NCBI GenBank assembly: GCA_030612045.1
Contig: JAUWOP010000007.1
Coordinates: forward strand, 1-41,388
Origin: Chloroflexota bacterium
GTDB taxonomy: Bacteria; Chloroflexota; Dehalococcoidia; UBA2247; JAUWOP01
Direction of reading: 5' to 3'
Length of the DNA stretch: 41,388 nucleotides
Shown in pieces: positions 6,311 to 20,923 of the stretch. How positions within the stretch are numbered: the first letter of the stretch is position 1; the number at the start of each line of letters is the position of its first letter. The position numbers and the translations under genes were made by a program. The notes under the pieces are model-generated. The model made no database searches and was not told the DNA's origin. It saw only the letters and a list, made by a program, of their open reading frames with translations.

Positions 6311-6656
6311 ACAACAACAATGCTGCTCCAGCTTAACAAAAGAGGGGAAAACCTATACGATGAAGAGGTAATTTTAAATTGGGAGATGATGATAAGAAAG
6401 ATAGGACTAGCAACGACCATTATTTCCTAATAGCACTGCTTGTTATATGTGACGACACAAGTATTTGCGTATAGGATATATGAGGAATTTCTAAATACTA
6501 ATCTCCAAACTCTAAACAAATTCAAATGACCCAAATCACAATCTCAAAACCAGCCATAGCCGTATCTTTTAGGGTGTGTTAGAGCCGCAAGTTAAAGACA
6601 CAAAGCTCTGCAGCTAGTGTAGTGTCTCCTAAATGACTCGACAATGAAGTGCCCCA

Positions 6657-6747
6657 TGTCATTCCCGCCCCGTATCAAGTACGGGGTAAACTCCAGCGGG
6701 AATCCAGAAGGTCCAGGGATGGATTCCGTGTCAAGCACGGAATGACA
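6657..6747. repeat. MITE-like palindromic repeat with 9-bp terminal inverted repeats
   Basis: TGTCATTCC (6657-6665) / GGAATGACA (6739-6747). Two internal hairpins share loop TCAAG: CCCCGTA-tcaag-TACGGGG (6668-6686) and TTCCGTG-tcaag-CACGGAA (6724-6742, overlapping the right terminus). Confidence 0.85.
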
Positions 6748-7134
6748 AACTGTATAGTTATTACAATTACACTACACTAGAAGGTTTTGCTTATTCTAAT
6801 TTGGGTATTATTTAGGATTTAGAACTTAGAGATTAGAGTTTGATTCCAGTGTATGCGCATTTAATTATGTCGTTCTATATAACAGGGAGACCGGAAGCTG
6901 GAGTTACTGGGTGACTAATACGATGCAGCAGGAGGTGGAAAATCCACCACAAGGAAAGAGCATCTTTTACTCCGCCTAGAAATTGCTTGGCTTGTTCTAT
7001 CGTCTGCATTCGTTCATCGTTCATAATCAGCCTCATGTCCCAATTATAAACGAGATGCCCGAACCCTTCAGTATCTCTTATGTTAGAAATCGATGCCCTC
7101 TTCAGGCTCGCCTTGTGTTGGAAGAGACTAAAAG

Positions 7135-7163
7135 TTGACTTCAGCCAATAGTGTTTGTATATT
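7135..7163 (+). promoter_or_regulatory. Putative sigma70-type promoter for the 7204 gene
   Basis: TTGACT (7135-7140), 17-nt spacer, TATATT (7158-7163), about 40 nt upstream of the ATG. Confidence 0.5.
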
Positions 7164-7203: not shown

Positions 7204-7836
7204 ATGAATGGGTATTTTACACTTGTTACGGTCACAGGGGCGCATCTACAGGAGAAACCAGAAGAGTCTCCAACACGAAAGGATAAGGGCCCAGTTGGTC
7301 TTGGTTTAAACTATGAGTGGGATGGAGAGTTCGTCCTTAAAGAGGGAAGAGAGGTTTCTAGCCTCACCCTTGAAGAGGCTTGTAGGGCTTTAGCCGAAAC
7401 CTGGAGCTTACTGTACCGCAGTGGTTTCCATGCAGCTCTATATTCGGCGAATTTCTCCAAATCCGGGCGATCACTGGTATTTCAGCTATCACAGAGAATC
7501 GCCATACTAGATCCAGAGGGGTATGTGAAAAGGTCAAAACCGACCCATAATCTACCAGCCCATAGACTGCTGAGGGAATCTGAAGAATATGTTCCTCAGA
7601 GCATTAAGCTCGCTGAGGCTAGAGAGTTGGCTAACTACTATCATCCAGAGACCAAAGAGGAACGGATAAGGATTACTGCAGCTATAGCCCAAGCAGCACA
7701 GAATCTTATAGTTCGTGGGAAAGAAGAAGCTGAGCCTCCTTCAGATGAAGAGGTATTAGGTGAGAGCAAAGCTCAACTTACATTAGATCAAAAATTTGGT
7801 ACAGGAGGTTTAGCTGCTTTTACATCAGCTCCTTAG
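7204..7836 (+). CDS. Hypothetical protein upstream of nurA
   Basis: Complete 210-aa ORF with a plausible SD (ggtggaggagaagag) and promoter; no domain recognised. Confidence 0.7.
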   Translation: MNGYFTLVTVTGAHLQEKPEESPTRKDKGPVGLGLNYEWDGEFVLKEGREVSSLTLEEACRALAETWSLLYRSGFHAALYSANFSKSGRSLVFQLSQRIAILDPEGYVKRSKPTHNLPAHRLLRESEEYVPQSIKLAEARELANYYHPETKEERIRITAAIAQAAQNLIVRGKEEAEPPSDEEVLGESKAQLTLDQKFGTGGLAAFTSAP

Positions 7837-7909
7837 GTGTATGGTTTCTCATGTTCTGACTCCTCCCACTGGAAGAAAGGATCATAGAAGGTTTTACGCT
7901 TAACATAAT

Positions 7910-9109
7910 ATGACATTGGACCTCGTTCGTGTAGTAGCCCAGATTGATAGCCTTGCTCATAATTTGAGAGCAGAGGAGAAGGTGCGCTACGAGCGCCTTC
8001 ATTCTGCCATGAGTCTGCTCTCATCATATGCATGTGAGACCGAGAAGCTAAGAGGGAAGATAGCTACCAGCAAGACAAGCTGGCTGATAGCCGAACCACA
8101 GGGAAAGCTAGACCAGTCCTGTCCTCCTTCACCCTGCCCCGACGATTTTACTGTCATTGCTACCGATGGTTCCCAAATAGATGTTGACCGTCACTACTCA
8201 GTAAGCTGCTACCTTATTAACATTGGAGCTGTTACGCTCCATTATGGGGGGAATCCCTATGCTTCTCTGGAGAGCACGCCTTTTCTTTACTTTGGTGAAG
8301 AATCCAATCTTGCTGACCCCAAAGGTATGTGGAAGCAAGCTATCAAAGGAGACCTCTTGGGAATAAAGCGCAGTGTAGATGAATGTCGTCACCTGACAGA
8401 GTTAGCACAGAGTTTACCATTAGGAACTCCTGCACTTGCCCTGCTGGATGGCTCTCTGGTTCTGTGGAGACTGGAAACTCAAGGTTATCCTGACTTTGTG
8501 AAGCAGAATTTACTGGAGGAAGGATTTCTCAGCTCTCTTGATAGCCTCAGTAAATTGAGTGAGCAGGGAAATCTTACAGTGGCAAGCTATATTAGCTCTC
8601 CCGGGAGTACCGAGGTGGTTAATATTCTGCGCCTCGCTCTTTGCCCCTATGAAATAGCCAACTGTGACCGCTATTGTTCAGGCAGAGACACGGTGAGGAA
8701 ATGCGAGGTGGTAGCAGGGATTCGTGACCGGGACTTATTTCAGCAACTTCTCTCTCCTGGTGAAAGGTCAGCGCTCTTTCTTACCCGCTCTAAAATTGTT
8801 AGAGAAAGTTACCGTGAACACCAGATACTATTCTTCTATCTTCGGCTGGAAGATGAGGTTGCCAGGGTGGAAATCCCTCGCTGGGTGGTGGACAATGGGC
8901 ATCTTGAGCTGACTCATGCTCTGATTCTGGACCAGTGCCATCGGGGTGAAGGCTATCCTGTAGCTTTGAGTGAAGCCCATGAGAAGGCAGTGGTAAGCTC
9001 TACTGACAAAGAGCAATTCTGGCATCTAGTAGAACTTGCTCTAAATCACTCTCATCTTCCCTTCACCACCTCAGCCAAGAGTCAGAGTAAGAGAACGAGA
9101 TGGGTATAG
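7910..9109 (+). CDS. nurA: NurA-domain DNA nuclease
   Basis: FTVIATDGSQIDVDRH N-terminal NurA motif, later RWVVDNGHLELTHALILDQCHRGEGYPVALSEAHEKAVV; directly upstream of a HerA helicase. Confidence 0.87.
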   Translation: MTLDLVRVVAQIDSLAHNLRAEEKVRYERLHSAMSLLSSYACETEKLRGKIATSKTSWLIAEPQGKLDQSCPPSPCPDDFTVIATDGSQIDVDRHYSVSCYLINIGAVTLHYGGNPYASLESTPFLYFGEESNLADPKGMWKQAIKGDLLGIKRSVDECRHLTELAQSLPLGTPALALLDGSLVLWRLETQGYPDFVKQNLLEEGFLSSLDSLSKLSEQGNLTVASYISSPGSTEVVNILRLALCPYEIANCDRYCSGRDTVRKCEVVAGIRDRDLFQQLLSPGERSALFLTRSKIVRESYREHQILFFYLRLEDEVARVEIPRWVVDNGHLELTHALILDQCHRGEGYPVALSEAHEKAVVSSTDKEQFWHLVELALNHSHLPFTTSAKSQSKRTRWV

Positions 9110-9708
9110 AAATGCCTCTCAAGGTAGCAGAAGTTATCGAAGCCAATACCACAGAGTTTACCGCTCAGTGTTATGAGCTTTACCAGGCTCCGCCATTTGG
9201 CAGTCTGGTAAAGACCTCTACCGCACCAGTGGAGATTTACGGAATCATATATAATACTACTACTGGCAGCATTGACCCCGGACGTCGTCCTCTTGCCAGG
9301 GGGAAGGAGGAGAGCAAAGAGGAGGACATCTATCGCATTCACCCTCAGTTTTCCTCTCTGTTTCGTACCGAGTGTAATGTTCTGGTGGTAGGATATAATG
9401 AAGAGGGCAGGATTCATCACTACCTGCCCCCTCATCCTGCTCACATCCACAGCTTTGTATATCAATGCTCCGATGAAGAGGTGTACCAGTTCAGCCAGTC
9501 ACTAGACTTCCTTAGCCTGATACTGGCATCCCAAGGCAAATCTCCTGTACCTGTAGAGGAACTCTTAGCTGCCTCCCTGCGTTATGCCAGTAGAACACAC
9601 CCTGAGAGAGGAGAGTTTCTCATCACTGCCGGCAGGGAACTGACACTGCTTCTAAGTAAAGAAGTAAACTGTCTTAGCACTATACTGAAAAGAATCCAGG
9701 GCGAGTAA
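9100..9708 (+). CDS. Stand-alone HAS-barrel-like protein between NurA and HerA
   Basis: KVAEVIEANTTEFTAQCYELYQAPPFGSLVKTS...IYGIIYNTTTGSIDPGRRPLARG; resembles HerA-ATP synthase barrel proteins of NurA/HerA loci. 10-nt overlap with nurA. Confidence 0.72.
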   Translation: MGIEMPLKVAEVIEANTTEFTAQCYELYQAPPFGSLVKTSTAPVEIYGIIYNTTTGSIDPGRRPLARGKEESKEEDIYRIHPQFSSLFRTECNVLVVGYNEEGRIHHYLPPHPAHIHSFVYQCSDEEVYQFSQSLDFLSLILASQGKSPVPVEELLAASLRYASRTHPERGEFLITAGRELTLLLSKEVNCLSTILKRIQGE

Positions 9709-9734
9709 GCTGACTGATGTCAGTCAGCTTACTC
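9703..9734. other. Perfect 15-bp stem / 2-nt loop hairpin spanning the stop codon before herA
   Basis: GAGTAAGCTGACTGA (9703-9717) tg TCAGTCAGCTTACTC (9720-9734); stop TAA at 9706-9708. Confidence 0.9.
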
Positions 9735-9754
9735 ATACTAAGGAGAGCCCGGCC

Positions 9755-11395
9755 GTGAATAAGAACATGCATTATGAAGAACAGGAAGACCTCCGACTTG
9801 GTATAGTTACTGGTGGGTCACTCACCAGAGGACTGGATGTCAAGCTAGATAATACTGACCTCATTGAGGATGTATCTGTGGGCACATATGTCACTATTGC
9901 AGGGGAGAGACATCACTTCCTGGGTATGATTACAGATATTAGCCTGGAAATGGTTGACCCGATGTTGAGTATAAACCCTCCCGACCTCTCCAACCCTTTT
10001 CTCTCCAGGGTACTGAACGGAACTATCATCTATGGGAAGCTCCATATTCTGCCCCAACTCACGCTGAGCGGTAGTGCTGCTAGCCTCCTGGAGGGTCCAC
10101 AGCAGGTCAAGACCATTCCCTCTCATTTTGCTATGGTGCGGCAGGCTAGCGAGCAAGATATAGCTCGTGCTTTTGGTGAGGAAGATGAGAAGCACATCTA
10201 CATCGGTAACCCTCTCGATATGGAGACTAAGGTTTGTCTGGATGTATCTCGACTGATAGAACGCAGCAATGGTATCTTTGGCAAAAGTGGCACCGGTAAG
10301 ACCTTCCTCACCCGGATACTTCTTGCCGAAATGGTGCAGCGAGGGAATGCAGTTAACCTTATCTTCGATATGCACAATGAATATGGTTGGATGAGTACCA
10401 GTGAGTCCGGTTATGAGGTGAAGGCTCTGAAACAGCTCTTCCCCTCTCGTGTAGCGGTATTTACCCTGGACGAGCAAAGTTCCAGCCGTCGTGGTGTCAG
10501 CACCGACTTCGTAGTAGAGATAGGCTATGATGAGATAGAGCCTGAGGATATTAGCATACTCCAGGAGACCCTCAACATTACTGATAAGGGTATCGAGCTG
10601 GTATATGAACTCCACGAGCACTATGGCAAGAAGTGGCTGGATAGGTTTCTATCTCAAAGTGTTCAGGAAACCCAAGAAGAGCTGGAACAACGGATAGAGG
10701 TTCATCGTGGCACACTACAGGCACTCCGCCGCAGCCTTAGCCAGCTTAAACGGCTTCACTTTTTAGTGTCTGAAGCCAGGCAAAATTCTGTAGCCTCTCT
10801 TCTTGCATATCTCAACCGTAAGATGAATGTGGTGCTGGAGTTTGGCAGGTATCGCGACAATATTCTCGCCTATGTTCTGGTGGCTAATATGCTCACCCGC
10901 CGTATCCACGATAGCTATGTGAGGAGGAAGGAGCAGGCAATGGGAGAGAGTGCGGATGAGCCGGTACCACTCATCATTACCATCGAGGAAGCACACAAGT
11001 TTCTTAATTCCAGCGTAGCTTCTCAAACTATCTTTGGTACTATTGCACGGGAGATGCGTAAGTATAATGTCACCCTTCTGGTCATTGACCAGCGCCCCGG
11101 CAGTATTGATGAGGAGGTAATGTCTCAGATTGGTACCAAGATGAGTTGTCTGCTGGATAATGAGAAGGATATTGACAGTGTGCTCACAGGGATACATGGG
11201 AAGAGTGACCTCAAGGTAGTACTCTCCAGACTGGAGACCAAGCAACAGGCACTCATCTTCGGACATGCTGTGCCCATGCCAATAGTGGTAAGGGTAAAGA
11301 CCTATGGCACACCAGACTCATACGAACACTATGGCTCCATTACCCCCACCAGGGCAAAGCTAGAGACAGAAGATATAGATGATTTATGGGGATAG
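9755..11395 (+). CDS. herA: HerA-type DNA translocase/helicase (DUF87)
   Basis: Walker A GIFGKSGTGKTFLTR, Walker B PLIITIEEAHKFLN, TIAREMRKYNVTLLVIDQRPGSIDEEVMSQIGTK. GTG start. Confidence 0.93.
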   Translation: MNKNMHYEEQEDLRLGIVTGGSLTRGLDVKLDNTDLIEDVSVGTYVTIAGERHHFLGMITDISLEMVDPMLSINPPDLSNPFLSRVLNGTIIYGKLHILPQLTLSGSAASLLEGPQQVKTIPSHFAMVRQASEQDIARAFGEEDEKHIYIGNPLDMETKVCLDVSRLIERSNGIFGKSGTGKTFLTRILLAEMVQRGNAVNLIFDMHNEYGWMSTSESGYEVKALKQLFPSRVAVFTLDEQSSSRRGVSTDFVVEIGYDEIEPEDISILQETLNITDKGIELVYELHEHYGKKWLDRFLSQSVQETQEELEQRIEVHRGTLQALRRSLSQLKRLHFLVSEARQNSVASLLAYLNRKMNVVLEFGRYRDNILAYVLVANMLTRRIHDSYVRRKEQAMGESADEPVPLIITIEEAHKFLNSSVASQTIFGTIAREMRKYNVTLLVIDQRPGSIDEEVMSQIGTKMSCLLDNEKDIDSVLTGIHGKSDLKVVLSRLETKQQALIFGHAVPMPIVVRVKTYGTPDSYEHYGSITPTRAKLETEDIDDLWG

Positions 11396-17841: not shown

Positions 17842-18636
17842 ATGGTGACGGAAGAGGAAAATGCAGAGCGGCTGGCCAGTAGGGTAGCTGACTTAATTCT
17901 TAATGCCAAAAAGGTAGTGGTGTTTACTGGAGCTGGGGTTAGCACCGAATCAGGAATTCCCGACTTCCGTAGTCCTGGTGGATTATGGGATAGGTATGAC
18001 CCTGAGGAATTTACTTATCAAAGGTTCGTGAGCAGCTATGAGTCGAGGAGAAGGCACTGGGAAATGTTAGCAGATTCCTCTCTTCTGACCATAGAGGCAA
18101 AACCTAACCCTACCCATTATGCTATTGCTGAGCTGGAGAGGTTGGGGAAACTGGATTGCGTCATTACCCAGAATGTAGATAACCTGCACCAAAGAGCAGG
18201 GACCTCCGAAGAAAATGTACTGGAGCTTCATGGGAGCACACAGCGTGTGGTCTGTCTGAACTGCGGAAAATGCTACCCATCAGCACACATCCATAATGAG
18301 ATAAAAAAAGGAGTCGAGGTGCCTGAATGTGAGGCATGCCATGGAATGTTGAAACCGGATGCTGTCCTCTTTGGTGAGGCATTACCTCAGAGAGTGCTTA
18401 GTGAAGCAATTCGTCGCTCCCGTAGCTGCGACCTGTGTATCGTCATCGGCTCTACCCTCATAGTGTATCCTGCTGCTGCTATGCCTAGTTATGCACTGGA
18501 AGCGGGAGCAAAACTGGTCATCGTCAATATTACCCCTACTCCACTGGATAGGCAAGCTGAGGTACTCTTTCATGGGAAGGCAGGTAACTTCATGTCAAAA
18601 GTAGTGGAGAAGGTGAGGGGGCGACTAATCCCTTAA
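17842..18636 (+). CDS. Sir2-family NAD-dependent protein deacylase
   Basis: VVVFTGAGVSTESGIPDFRSPGGLWDRY, ITQNVDNLHQRAG, LHGS, zinc Cys4 CLNCGKC...CEACHG, KPDAVLFGEALP, IGSTLIVYPAA. Confidence 0.97.
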   Translation: MVTEEENAERLASRVADLILNAKKVVVFTGAGVSTESGIPDFRSPGGLWDRYDPEEFTYQRFVSSYESRRRHWEMLADSSLLTIEAKPNPTHYAIAELERLGKLDCVITQNVDNLHQRAGTSEENVLELHGSTQRVVCLNCGKCYPSAHIHNEIKKGVEVPECEACHGMLKPDAVLFGEALPQRVLSEAIRRSRSCDLCIVIGSTLIVYPAAAMPSYALEAGAKLVIVNITPTPLDRQAEVLFHGKAGNFMSKVVEKVRGRLIP

Positions 18637-18637
18637 C

Positions 18638-20923
18638 CTACAAGTGTAATGGATGACACAATTCATCCATGAGCATCACTGCAGCCTCCTTGTCCAGGGG
18701 CTGGTTGTTATTGCCGCACTTGGGTGAGTGGATGCAACTGGGACAACCTTCCTCACAGGGGCAGTCAACAATCATTTTCTGGGTAACCTCCCACAACTGC
18801 TGAATTAATTCAAAGCCCTTCTCTGCAATGCCAATCCCGCCGGGATGTGCATCATAGATAAAGATTTGAGGTTTGCCTGTATCAGGATGAAGCAGCGTCG
18901 AAATCCCTCCAATGTCGTTACGGTCACAGAGAGCGAAGAGGGGAAGCATAGCAATAGTAGCATGCTCAGTAGCATGTAATCCCCCGGCAAAATCAAGTCC
19001 AGCATCATATATCACTTGTTTTACTTCAGGAGGAATGTCAAACCACACGGCAACAGTTTGGAAGGAATAAGGGGGCAGTTCCACTACCTCTTCCTCTATC
19101 ACCTCTTCAGTGTACTGCATCTTCTTCTTAAACCCTATGACAGTAGTGGTAACTTCTACTTCACCCAGGTAAATCCGGCTCTGAGCCATCTCCTTTTCCT
19201 GTATTACACTGATTATCCTGAGTTCAGAGAGTTCCCTTGCCTGAGTATAATAAGAGACATCAACATGCTGGGCATAGGCAGTATGAGAATGTAAATCCAA
19301 CTCAACGACCAGAAAAGTCTCACCCTGGTGCAGATATATTGCTCCAGGATGAAGCTGCAATAAGGCAATACTTCCCTCCACGGTCTCCATCAGCTTATTC
19401 CTCTGAGATGAGTCGACCAAGGTATAACGATAATCTGAGACAGAGCGCAGATTAATTGCTGCAGCAGGATAGTTTATAGTCGGTGAAGGATACCAGCGTC
19501 CCTTACGCATTCGAAGCTGCCCGCTTTGCTCCAATGTCTCTAACACCTGAGTAAAGCTCTCGCCAAAAAACTCTTTATCAGTGCCAACCAATGGTAACTC
19601 CCAGGCGGCACAGAGTAGGTGGGATTTCAGGATATGGATATTCCCTGGGTTAATCAGAGCATTCTCAAACCCTTTATGGAAGAAGGAGTCAGGGTGGTGC
19701 ATAAAATATTGGTCCAGCGGATTACTCGCTCCAATAAGAATACTCAGTGACCTTTGTTGTTTTCTTCCACTGCGCCCTGCCTGCTGCCATGTACTGGCGA
19801 TGCTCCCCGGGTAACCGGTTAGTATTGTGGCATCAAGGTCACCAATATCAATCCCCAACTCCAGTGCTGTGGTAGCTACTATACCTCTCAAGTTACCCTG
19901 AAAGAAGTCCCGTTCTATCTGGCGACGTTCTTCGGGAAGATAACCTGCACGGTAAGGCTTAATTTGCTCTGCCAGACCCAGGTCAACCAAGCGTTCATGA
20001 GAATACCTATAGATTAGCTCAGTCAGTTTGCGGGTATGAGCAAAGGTGAGGGTACGAATATTACGATGAACTAACTCTGCCAGTAAAGAAGCTGCTTCAC
20101 TATTAGTGCTGCGTCTTACCATGTGGGCTTCATCAATAAGGGGGGGATTCCAGAAGACAAAGTCCTTACCACCATAAGAGGAACCATTCTCCTCTATCAG
20201 GTCGAAGGGTAATCCTACCAGTTTCTCAATGTGTTCCTTAGGGTTGGCAATAGTAGCTGAGCAGCAGATAAACTGGGGAAAGGAATTGTAATATCCACAC
20301 AGGCGCCGCAACCGTCGTAACACGTTGCCTACCTGAGAGCCAAACACTCCACGATACATATGAGCCTCATCTACTACTACAAACCTGAGACAGCGCAGAA
20401 ATCGTGACCACATGGAATGGTTGGGAAGGATTCCAAGGTGAAGCATGTCGGGATTACTGAGCACAACTCGGGAGCGTCTCCTTATTCCGGCACGCTCCGC
20501 TTGAGGTGTATCACCATCAAAGAGGGCACACTCTATGTAGTGGAGATGCGAGGATAGACGCAGTAGAGTTTGCATCTGGTCTTGGGCCAGTGCTTTAGTG
20601 GGAAAGAGATAAAGGGCACAACAATTCTTATCATTCAGAAGTGCCTCTAGTATGGGAAGGTTATAGCACATGGTTTTACCACTGGCAGCCGAGGTAGATA
20701 CCATAACATTTCTTCCTGCACGAGCTACCTTTAGTGCCGTTACCTGATGAGTATAGAGAGGGAACATACCGGCAGATTTCAGAGCGGATTCCAGCAGTGG
20801 GGGCAGAGGCTTATCCAGCTCACCATAACTTGCTGATTGGGATGGTATATGCTCTACATGAACAATCTGATTTTGATAAAAAGGTAACTCTTTAAGTTGC
20901 TCTAGCAGGAAGGCAGTATCCAT
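18638..20923 (-). CDS. DEAD/DEAH helicase with DUF1998-type Cys4 C-terminus (MrfA/YprA-like)
   Basis: STSAASGKTMCYNLPIL, VVVDEAHMYRGVFGSQ, ATTALELGIDIGDLDATI, QQAGRSGRKQQRSL, C-terminal CPCEEGCPSCIHSPKCGNNNQPLDK. Confidence 0.93.
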   Translation of the reverse strand: MDTAFLLEQLKELPFYQNQIVHVEHIPSQSASYGELDKPLPPLLESALKSAGMFPLYTHQVTALKVARAGRNVMVSTSAASGKTMCYNLPILEALLNDKNCCALYLFPTKALAQDQMQTLLRLSSHLHYIECALFDGDTPQAERAGIRRRSRVVLSNPDMLHLGILPNHSMWSRFLRCLRFVVVDEAHMYRGVFGSQVGNVLRRLRRLCGYYNSFPQFICCSATIANPKEHIEKLVGLPFDLIEENGSSYGGKDFVFWNPPLIDEAHMVRRSTNSEAASLLAELVHRNIRTLTFAHTRKLTELIYRYSHERLVDLGLAEQIKPYRAGYLPEERRQIERDFFQGNLRGIVATTALELGIDIGDLDATILTGYPGSIASTWQQAGRSGRKQQRSLSILIGASNPLDQYFMHHPDSFFHKGFENALINPGNIHILKSHLLCAAWELPLVGTDKEFFGESFTQVLETLEQSGQLRMRKGRWYPSPTINYPAAAINLRSVSDYRYTLVDSSQRNKLMETVEGSIALLQLHPGAIYLHQGETFLVVELDLHSHTAYAQHVDVSYYTQARELSELRIISVIQEKEMAQSRIYLGEVEVTTTVIGFKKKMQYTEEVIEEEVVELPPYSFQTVAVWFDIPPEVKQVIYDAGLDFAGGLHATEHATIAMLPLFALCDRNDIGGISTLLHPDTGKPQIFIYDAHPGGIGIAEKGFELIQQLWEVTQKMIVDCPCEEGCPSCIHSPKCGNNNQPLDKEAAVMLMDELCHPLHL

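Follow-up and report, generated by a model that had tools for sequence, protein, structure and literature searches.

We analysed a stretch of 41,388 nucleotides (nt; here called the window) from a 1.62-Mb draft genome, 97% complete, of a Dehalococcoidia bacterium (Chloroflexota). On its + strand lie, in tandem, a gene for a NurA-family nuclease, a gene for a small stand-alone protein resembling the HAS barrel of HerA, and herA itself. A first-pass annotation of the same DNA had proposed a NurA, stand-alone HAS and HerA operon with an upstream gene. The coordinates of all four open reading frames were confirmed, and these coordinates, the Pfam matches and the predicted fold bear out the three-gene operon. 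We conclude that the middle gene probably encodes a real, overlooked part of the NurA-HerA machine. The features are as follows.

7910–9109, + strand: nurA, encoding a predicted NurA-family 5'-3' nuclease of 399 amino acids (aa); PF09376, E = 6.9e-36.
9100–9708, + strand: stand-alone HAS-barrel gene, 202 aa; the start may be at 9112.
9755–11395, + strand: herA, 546 aa, encoding a predicted hexameric DNA-translocase ATPase of the HerA/FtsK family; PF01935, E = 6.5e-33.
9703–9734, + strand: inverted repeat with perfect 15-bp arms and a 2-nt loop, across the HAS stop codon.
7204–7836, + strand: 210-aa ORFan upstream of nurA, possibly co-transcribed, outside the conserved module.

The start codon of herA is a GTG that lies 46 nt beyond the HAS stop, the same spacing as originally annotated. 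The 10-nt overlap reported between nurA and the HAS gene holds only if HAS begins at ATG 9100; an alternative in-frame ATG at 9112 (MPLKV...) suits most homologues equally well and leaves no overlap. The predicted nuclease belongs with the NurA family in that its conserved acidic residues D86 (in a DGS motif) and D180 are invariant. Across 39 homologues, the full set of invariant positions is D86-G87-S88, D180, R286, Y310, R319, E321, Q342, Y349-P350, E355 and H357. We take its fold to be RNase H-like, by family; a sequence-level search of the PDB gave no match for this protein, and a structure prediction from three sequences reached a pLDDT of 38 and was not used. The HerA protein, encoded in an operon with nurA, is an ATPase with Walker A (GKSGTGKT) and Walker B (IITIEEAH) motifs and, as the first reading had recognized, an N-terminal HAS barrel of its own (PF09378, E = 1.7e-6). 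Its nearest solved relatives are Sulfolobus HerA, the closest by profile, and SIR2-associated HerA, and TdpA was the weakest among its nine profile matches.

The stand-alone HAS-barrel protein

The window copy of the HAS-like protein matches PF09378 below the Pfam cut-off (E = 0.025; 15.1 bits, with the cut-off at 25.2), and matches to this family were obtained for 25 of 47 members of the protein's own family (E up to 0.5; best 4.1e-5). An AlphaFold2 model computed from four sequences (pLDDT 82.4, pTM 0.77) predicts a beta barrel (about residues 8–57), a short helix with a conserved segment (74–92) and a helical C-terminal domain (about 125–200). When the model was compared with the PDB using Foldseek, all of the 50 best matches were HerA structures (E = 3.1e-6 to 5e-4), among them those of Sulfolobus, Thermococcus, Deinococcus, TdpAB, HerA-DUF4297 and SIR2-HerA, so the predicted fold is not an unrelated one. 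Profile–profile comparison of the HAS family with the N terminus of the cognate HerA gave an E value of 0.0056, and wider profiles gave 9.1e-4. The alignment keeps a single register throughout, starting at the first barrel strand and ending at a conserved H...V...(D/E)V segment that precedes the ATPase. The fold and the profile match together indicate that the protein is a stand-alone relative of the HerA docking domain, and probably an old duplicate of it.

Homologues in relatives are about 200 aa long and mostly 30–58% identical to the window copy. Residues P31, R62, G68, P82 and L87 are invariant in 47 of them, and many further positions are nearly so. Segment 74–92 corresponds in the profile alignment to the part of HerA that follows the barrel; within it, the stretch IHPQFSSLFRT (about 80–90), among the most conserved in the protein, aligns with HerA LSNPFLSRVLNGT. 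The weak Pfam match of the window copy would fit a decaying or accidental herA fragment without function, but we give this explanation practically no credence: the full length of about 200 aa is kept in 47 sequences with invariant residues, the gene is retained phylum-wide, and the confidently modelled fold includes an extra C-terminal domain. The stand-alone protein is a real, conserved family with a predicted HAS-barrel fold. We found no paper describing such a protein with NurA, and an earlier mention may exist in the comparison of the FtsK-HerA superfamily by Iyer et al. (2004).

Co-occurrence and gene order in Chloroflexota

Among 100 relatives of the window genome, NurA was present in 58, HAS in 56 and HerA in 57, with all three in 53. 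HerA accompanied HAS in 56 of 56 genomes and occurred without it in one. In a wider sample, HAS was found in 151 of 400 Chloroflexota genomes, one-contig genomes included. At 79 HAS loci from Dehalococcoidia and other classes, nurA, HAS and herA were contiguous in at least 36, a lower bound because some loci stop at contig ends; a further 18 had nurA-HAS only and 21 had HAS-herA only. A HerA orthologue was present in 19 of 20 genomes that were picked mainly because HerA was not seen beside HAS. HAS thus keeps either partner when the other departs, as expected of a protein that touches both NurA and HerA. The role as an adaptor that the first-pass annotation had suggested therefore gains support from the HAS fold, from the co-occurrence with HerA and from conserved adjacency to both partners, the homologues usually lying beside nurA, herA or both. 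The trees of the three proteins also agree in distance (Mantel r 0.83–0.89), much of which common descent alone would yield.

A protein with these habits could instead be an inhibitor or assembly chaperone of NurA or HerA and not a lasting part of the complex; it might, for example, hold NurA inactive before HerA joins. Such a role would suit stoichiometric co-expression and the close gene junctions that are common, and HAS resembles a decoy of the HerA docking domain. However, HAS is equally conserved beside HerA at the 21 loci without NurA, where an inhibitor of NurA alone would be needless, and we regard this explanation as doubtful.

The wider neighbourhood in relatives often includes housekeeping genes: a histone-deacetylase-type (HDAC) gene divergent upstream, SelB directly upstream, SecD/SecF and anthranilate-synthase-type genes. 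Of 23 families represented by at least two genomes, 19 have the module in all of their genomes or in none, against 9.0 expected from shuffling. Full-length SbcD/Mre11 was detected in 49 of 56 genomes with HAS versus 20 of 44 without it (p = 9e-6; p = 0.005 with one genome per family), and the window genome has one SbcD, on a separate contig from the operon (C10:14123–14905). Nucleases of the PDDEXK_1 family and of AddAB size show the opposite trend (10 of 56 versus 23 of 44; p = 5e-4) in a test that shares its phylogeny with the SbcD test and is not independent of it; a search of the window genome found none. Family-consistent presence, synteny with housekeeping genes, co-occurrence with SbcD and the opposite trend of AddAB lean towards a housekeeping repair module over a defence module in Chloroflexota.

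No Chloroflexota-type HAS copies were found in the plasmid, phage and viral collections searched. Insertions between nurA and HAS occur in some genomes; they are heterogeneous, share no common theme and are mostly not defence-like. The genomes of one family (f23) have unrelated genes in this junction (L097:7302–8336 and L095:7131–8391), one of them TIR-like by eye and one HicA-like, and the two larger unknown ones tested had no Pfam or PADLOC match.

Conservation of the neighbourhood, which had been suggested as a check on all four genes, holds for nurA, HAS and herA and not for the 210-aa gene. The codon usage of this gene resembles that of its neighbours, so it is probably real. As first described, it is co-directional and has no recognized domain; no family match rose above the cut-off, and searches of 392 further genomes of the class, of phages and of IMG/VR contigs yielded no relative. 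It lies together with a nucleotidyltransferase gene between nurA and the HDAC gene, which is on the opposite strand. Because HDAC and nurA adjoin in many relatives, both genes are probably later insertions, and we rejected the 210-aa gene as a module member, considering it an ORFan inserted into a conserved HDAC-nurA arrangement. The promoter-like sequence before it (TTGACT-17-TATATT at 7135–7163; 10 of 12 matches) is the best in the region. With 10 such sites found and 8.9 ± 3.1 expected by chance, it is weak evidence for a promoter of the gene's own. A short imperfect repeat-like sequence around CCCGTATCAAGTACGGGG (6650–6750) lies in the long non-coding stretch from the nucleotidyltransferase gene to the ORFan.

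The inverted repeat at 9703–9734 ends 20 nt before herA, occurs once in the genome and folds strongly (fold z-score –4.8). Having no T-run, it is not a canonical terminator; it may form an RNA hairpin that influences herA expression. Two antisense open reading frames inside herA (9845–10621 and 10763–11266) were discarded as spurious because the herA strand scores better. Downstream of herA lie trmO and then metabolic genes, and about 6 kb past herA a Sir2-family gene adjoins an MrfA/HRQ1-type DEAD helicase gene, of a repair-related helicase family (17842–20923).

Haloarchaeal counterparts and a candidate three-subunit machine

When plasmids were searched with the window NurA, three haloarchaeal ones matched (DL31, Natrinema and Halobaculum), each with the gene order mre11-rad50-nurA-X-herA, in which X is annotated as a hypothetical protein. 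Searching with X brought in a fourth, Halorussus, in which herA directly follows X and the beginning of the circular record carries a nurA match; the mre11/rad50 region is not part of the stretch viewed. The loci are L205:5698–9309, L206:4905–8345, L207:4698–8471 and, for Halorussus with X and herA only, L208:307–2744 (accessions CP002989, NZ_CP084885, NZ_CP119991 and NZ_CP099995, the last seen in part). X is about 194–233 aa long in the first three plasmids and longer as annotated in Halorussus, and the DL31 protein has no Pfam match. A profile of the four X sequences aligned with the Chloroflexota HAS family at E = 7.7e-5 over 156 columns. Single-sequence hhalign comparisons were marginal, with DL31 and Natrinema scoring above all 60 control proteins and Halobaculum below 4 of them. 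Judging from position, size and motif order, X is likely, although not certain, to be orthologous to HAS. A 162-base PLSDB call of 'DES-1 beta-lactamase' that overlaps the end of herA in Halorussus (L208:2710–2871) is almost certainly spurious.

The DL31 cluster is preceded by a gene for a helicase that matches SngC of Shango at 4e-153; this plasmid version may thus act in defence. It is possible that the haloarchaeal clusters are plasmid-borne end-processing or defence systems.

In an alternative explanation, the trio would carry out antiviral DNA degradation, with HerA feeding invading double-stranded DNA to NurA and HAS serving as sensor or gate. HerA does partner effectors in the SIR2-HerA, HerA-DUF4297 and TdpAB structures, and an antiviral role has been proposed for Thermococcus kodakarensis HerA-NurA (PMC12977600). 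Several PADLOC HerA models match the window HerA, though not distinctively. The haloarchaeal copies are plasmid-borne, that of DL31 following an SngC-type helicase, and genes resembling toxins or TIR proteins lie between nurA and HAS in a few Dehalococcoidia. In Chloroflexota, however, presence is consistent within families rather than strain-patchy, synteny is with housekeeping genes, HAS co-occurs with SbcD, the nurA-HAS inserts are varied and mostly unlike defence genes, and the plasmid, phage and viral sets searched held no copies. NurA, HAS and the upstream 210-aa gene also lack PADLOC matches, and viral scans for HAS, HerA and the haloarchaeal X gene gave no matches. We consider antiviral degradation unlikely for the window trio, and placement in a defence island was rejected as unsupported by PADLOC, inserts or distribution. 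On the choice between repair and defence, which the first-pass annotation had left to inference, the evidence tilts towards an end-processing module that is chromosomal and conserved; yet the module is not universal (56 of 100 relatives), and its relatives on haloarchaeal plasmids leave room for a role in defence.

In Thermus thermophilus, DNA donation is impaired in TdtA/NurA and in HepA mutants (PMC5365140, PMC5448004), and the window trio could likewise move DNA in a conjugation-like or transformation process, as TdtA does with a NurA-like partner. TdtA, however, belongs to an integrative element that also carries a restriction enzyme, whereas the window neighbours are chromosomal metabolic genes, with no integrase, recombinase or type IV secretion gene among those scanned. 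This makes a role in DNA transfer very improbable.

We think it likely that the locus encodes a NurA-HAS-HerA machine for DNA-end processing in repair, with the stand-alone HAS protein as a third subunit or docking adaptor. In the arrangement that we infer, with its physical contacts, gating and repair role, HerA would be the hexameric motor, pumping double-stranded DNA, and at its mouth NurA would act as a dimeric nuclease. The HAS protein would have arisen by duplication of the HerA N-terminal docking domain, joined to a helical C-terminal domain. In T. kodakarensis, helix alpha-1 of the HerA HAS domain, together with the preceding loops, makes the contact with the NurA dimer (PMC12977600), and in Deinococcus radiodurans the HAS barrel mediates the HerA-NurA contact (PMC9960219). 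Because the HerA helix and loop contact NurA and the matching stretch of the HAS protein is highly conserved, we propose a HerA-like docking surface for NurA. Residues 74–92 (the helix and loop after the barrel) would bind NurA as the equivalent surface of HerA does, and the C-terminal helices may bind HerA or DNA. As an adaptor or gate, HAS would load NurA on the ring and control the timing of cutting. Loading NurA, linking the six-fold ring to the two-fold dimer and keeping NurA inactive until DNA is threaded are all conceivable tasks, and the gene data do not choose among them. In Chloroflexota, the trio would probably resect or clear double-strand ends, working beside Mre11/SbcD and in place of AddAB.

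Several points weigh against this repair machine. A 2026 study argued against end resection by T. kodakarensis HerA-NurA and suggested antiviral degradation (PMC12977600), and deletion of nurA/herA in T. thermophilus increased UV resistance, according to a passage in PMC7776575 that cites this result. None of the 14 other members sampled from the window's order has the module, and it is also missing from 44 of 100 relatives, so it is dispensable. Presence and absence are phylogenetically clumped, so genomes are not independent, and at one genome per family the AddAB anticorrelation is non-significant (p = 0.16). The homology of X is drawn from one profile comparison plus position. The proposed equivalence of residues 74–92 to the NurA-binding helix of HerA is one of sequence and profile alignment, not of coordinates.

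A broader version, which we offer as tentative and rather doubtful, is that NurA-HerA is primitively three-subunit in many bacteria and some archaea. A free HAS paralogue would join or cap the HAS collar, bridge six-fold HerA and two-fold NurA, and switch between protected resection and destructive degradation.

Comparison with known systems

The structural and biochemical studies consulted describe NurA-HerA as built of two proteins, and its task is disputed, being either the resection of DNA ends or the destruction of foreign DNA (PMC9960219 versus PMC12977600). Part of this dispute might be accounted for by a conserved third component, present in Chloroflexota and with a likely counterpart in haloarchaea. 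The protein itself, essentially without annotation and found in over a third of the Chloroflexota genomes sampled, would also gain a tentative function.

Several HerA systems resemble the window trio in part. The TdpAB, HerA-DUF4297 and SIR2-HerA antiphage systems likewise join a HerA-type ring to an attached effector enzyme, but they use other effectors or another HerA branch, and to our knowledge none has a stand-alone HAS protein. The operon contains no known defence effector or modification gene, and the distribution of the trio, apart from its plasmid-borne haloarchaeal relatives, is not patchy, mobile or of the defence-island kind. The Thermus TdtA-type DNA donation element differs in that the window trio is not in an integrative element with a recombinase, as far as the neighbours were scanned. 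AddAB/RecBCD would do the same proposed job, the processing of double-strand ends, with unrelated proteins. The haloarchaeal plasmid clusters share a gene of about 200–230 aa in the same slot, with profile-level homology, but are plasmid-borne and hold mre11-rad50 in the same cluster.

Two further likenesses are NurA-HerA complexes from archaea and from D. radiodurans. The archaeal HerA-NurA with Mre11-Rad50 (Sulfolobus, 4D2I; T. kodakarensis, 9X1M) is the same enzyme pair as in the window, but it is described as two-component, and the SbcD of the window genome lies outside the operon. The D. radiodurans NurA-HerA (PDB 7F6D; PMC9960219) similarly pairs bacterial nurA and herA, with the HAS barrels of the HerA hexamer docking NurA, and resects DNA ends in vitro, but no stand-alone HAS protein has been described for it. 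Because the window system has a third, co-conserved HAS protein and so is not two-component, it is a variant of these NurA-HerA complexes.

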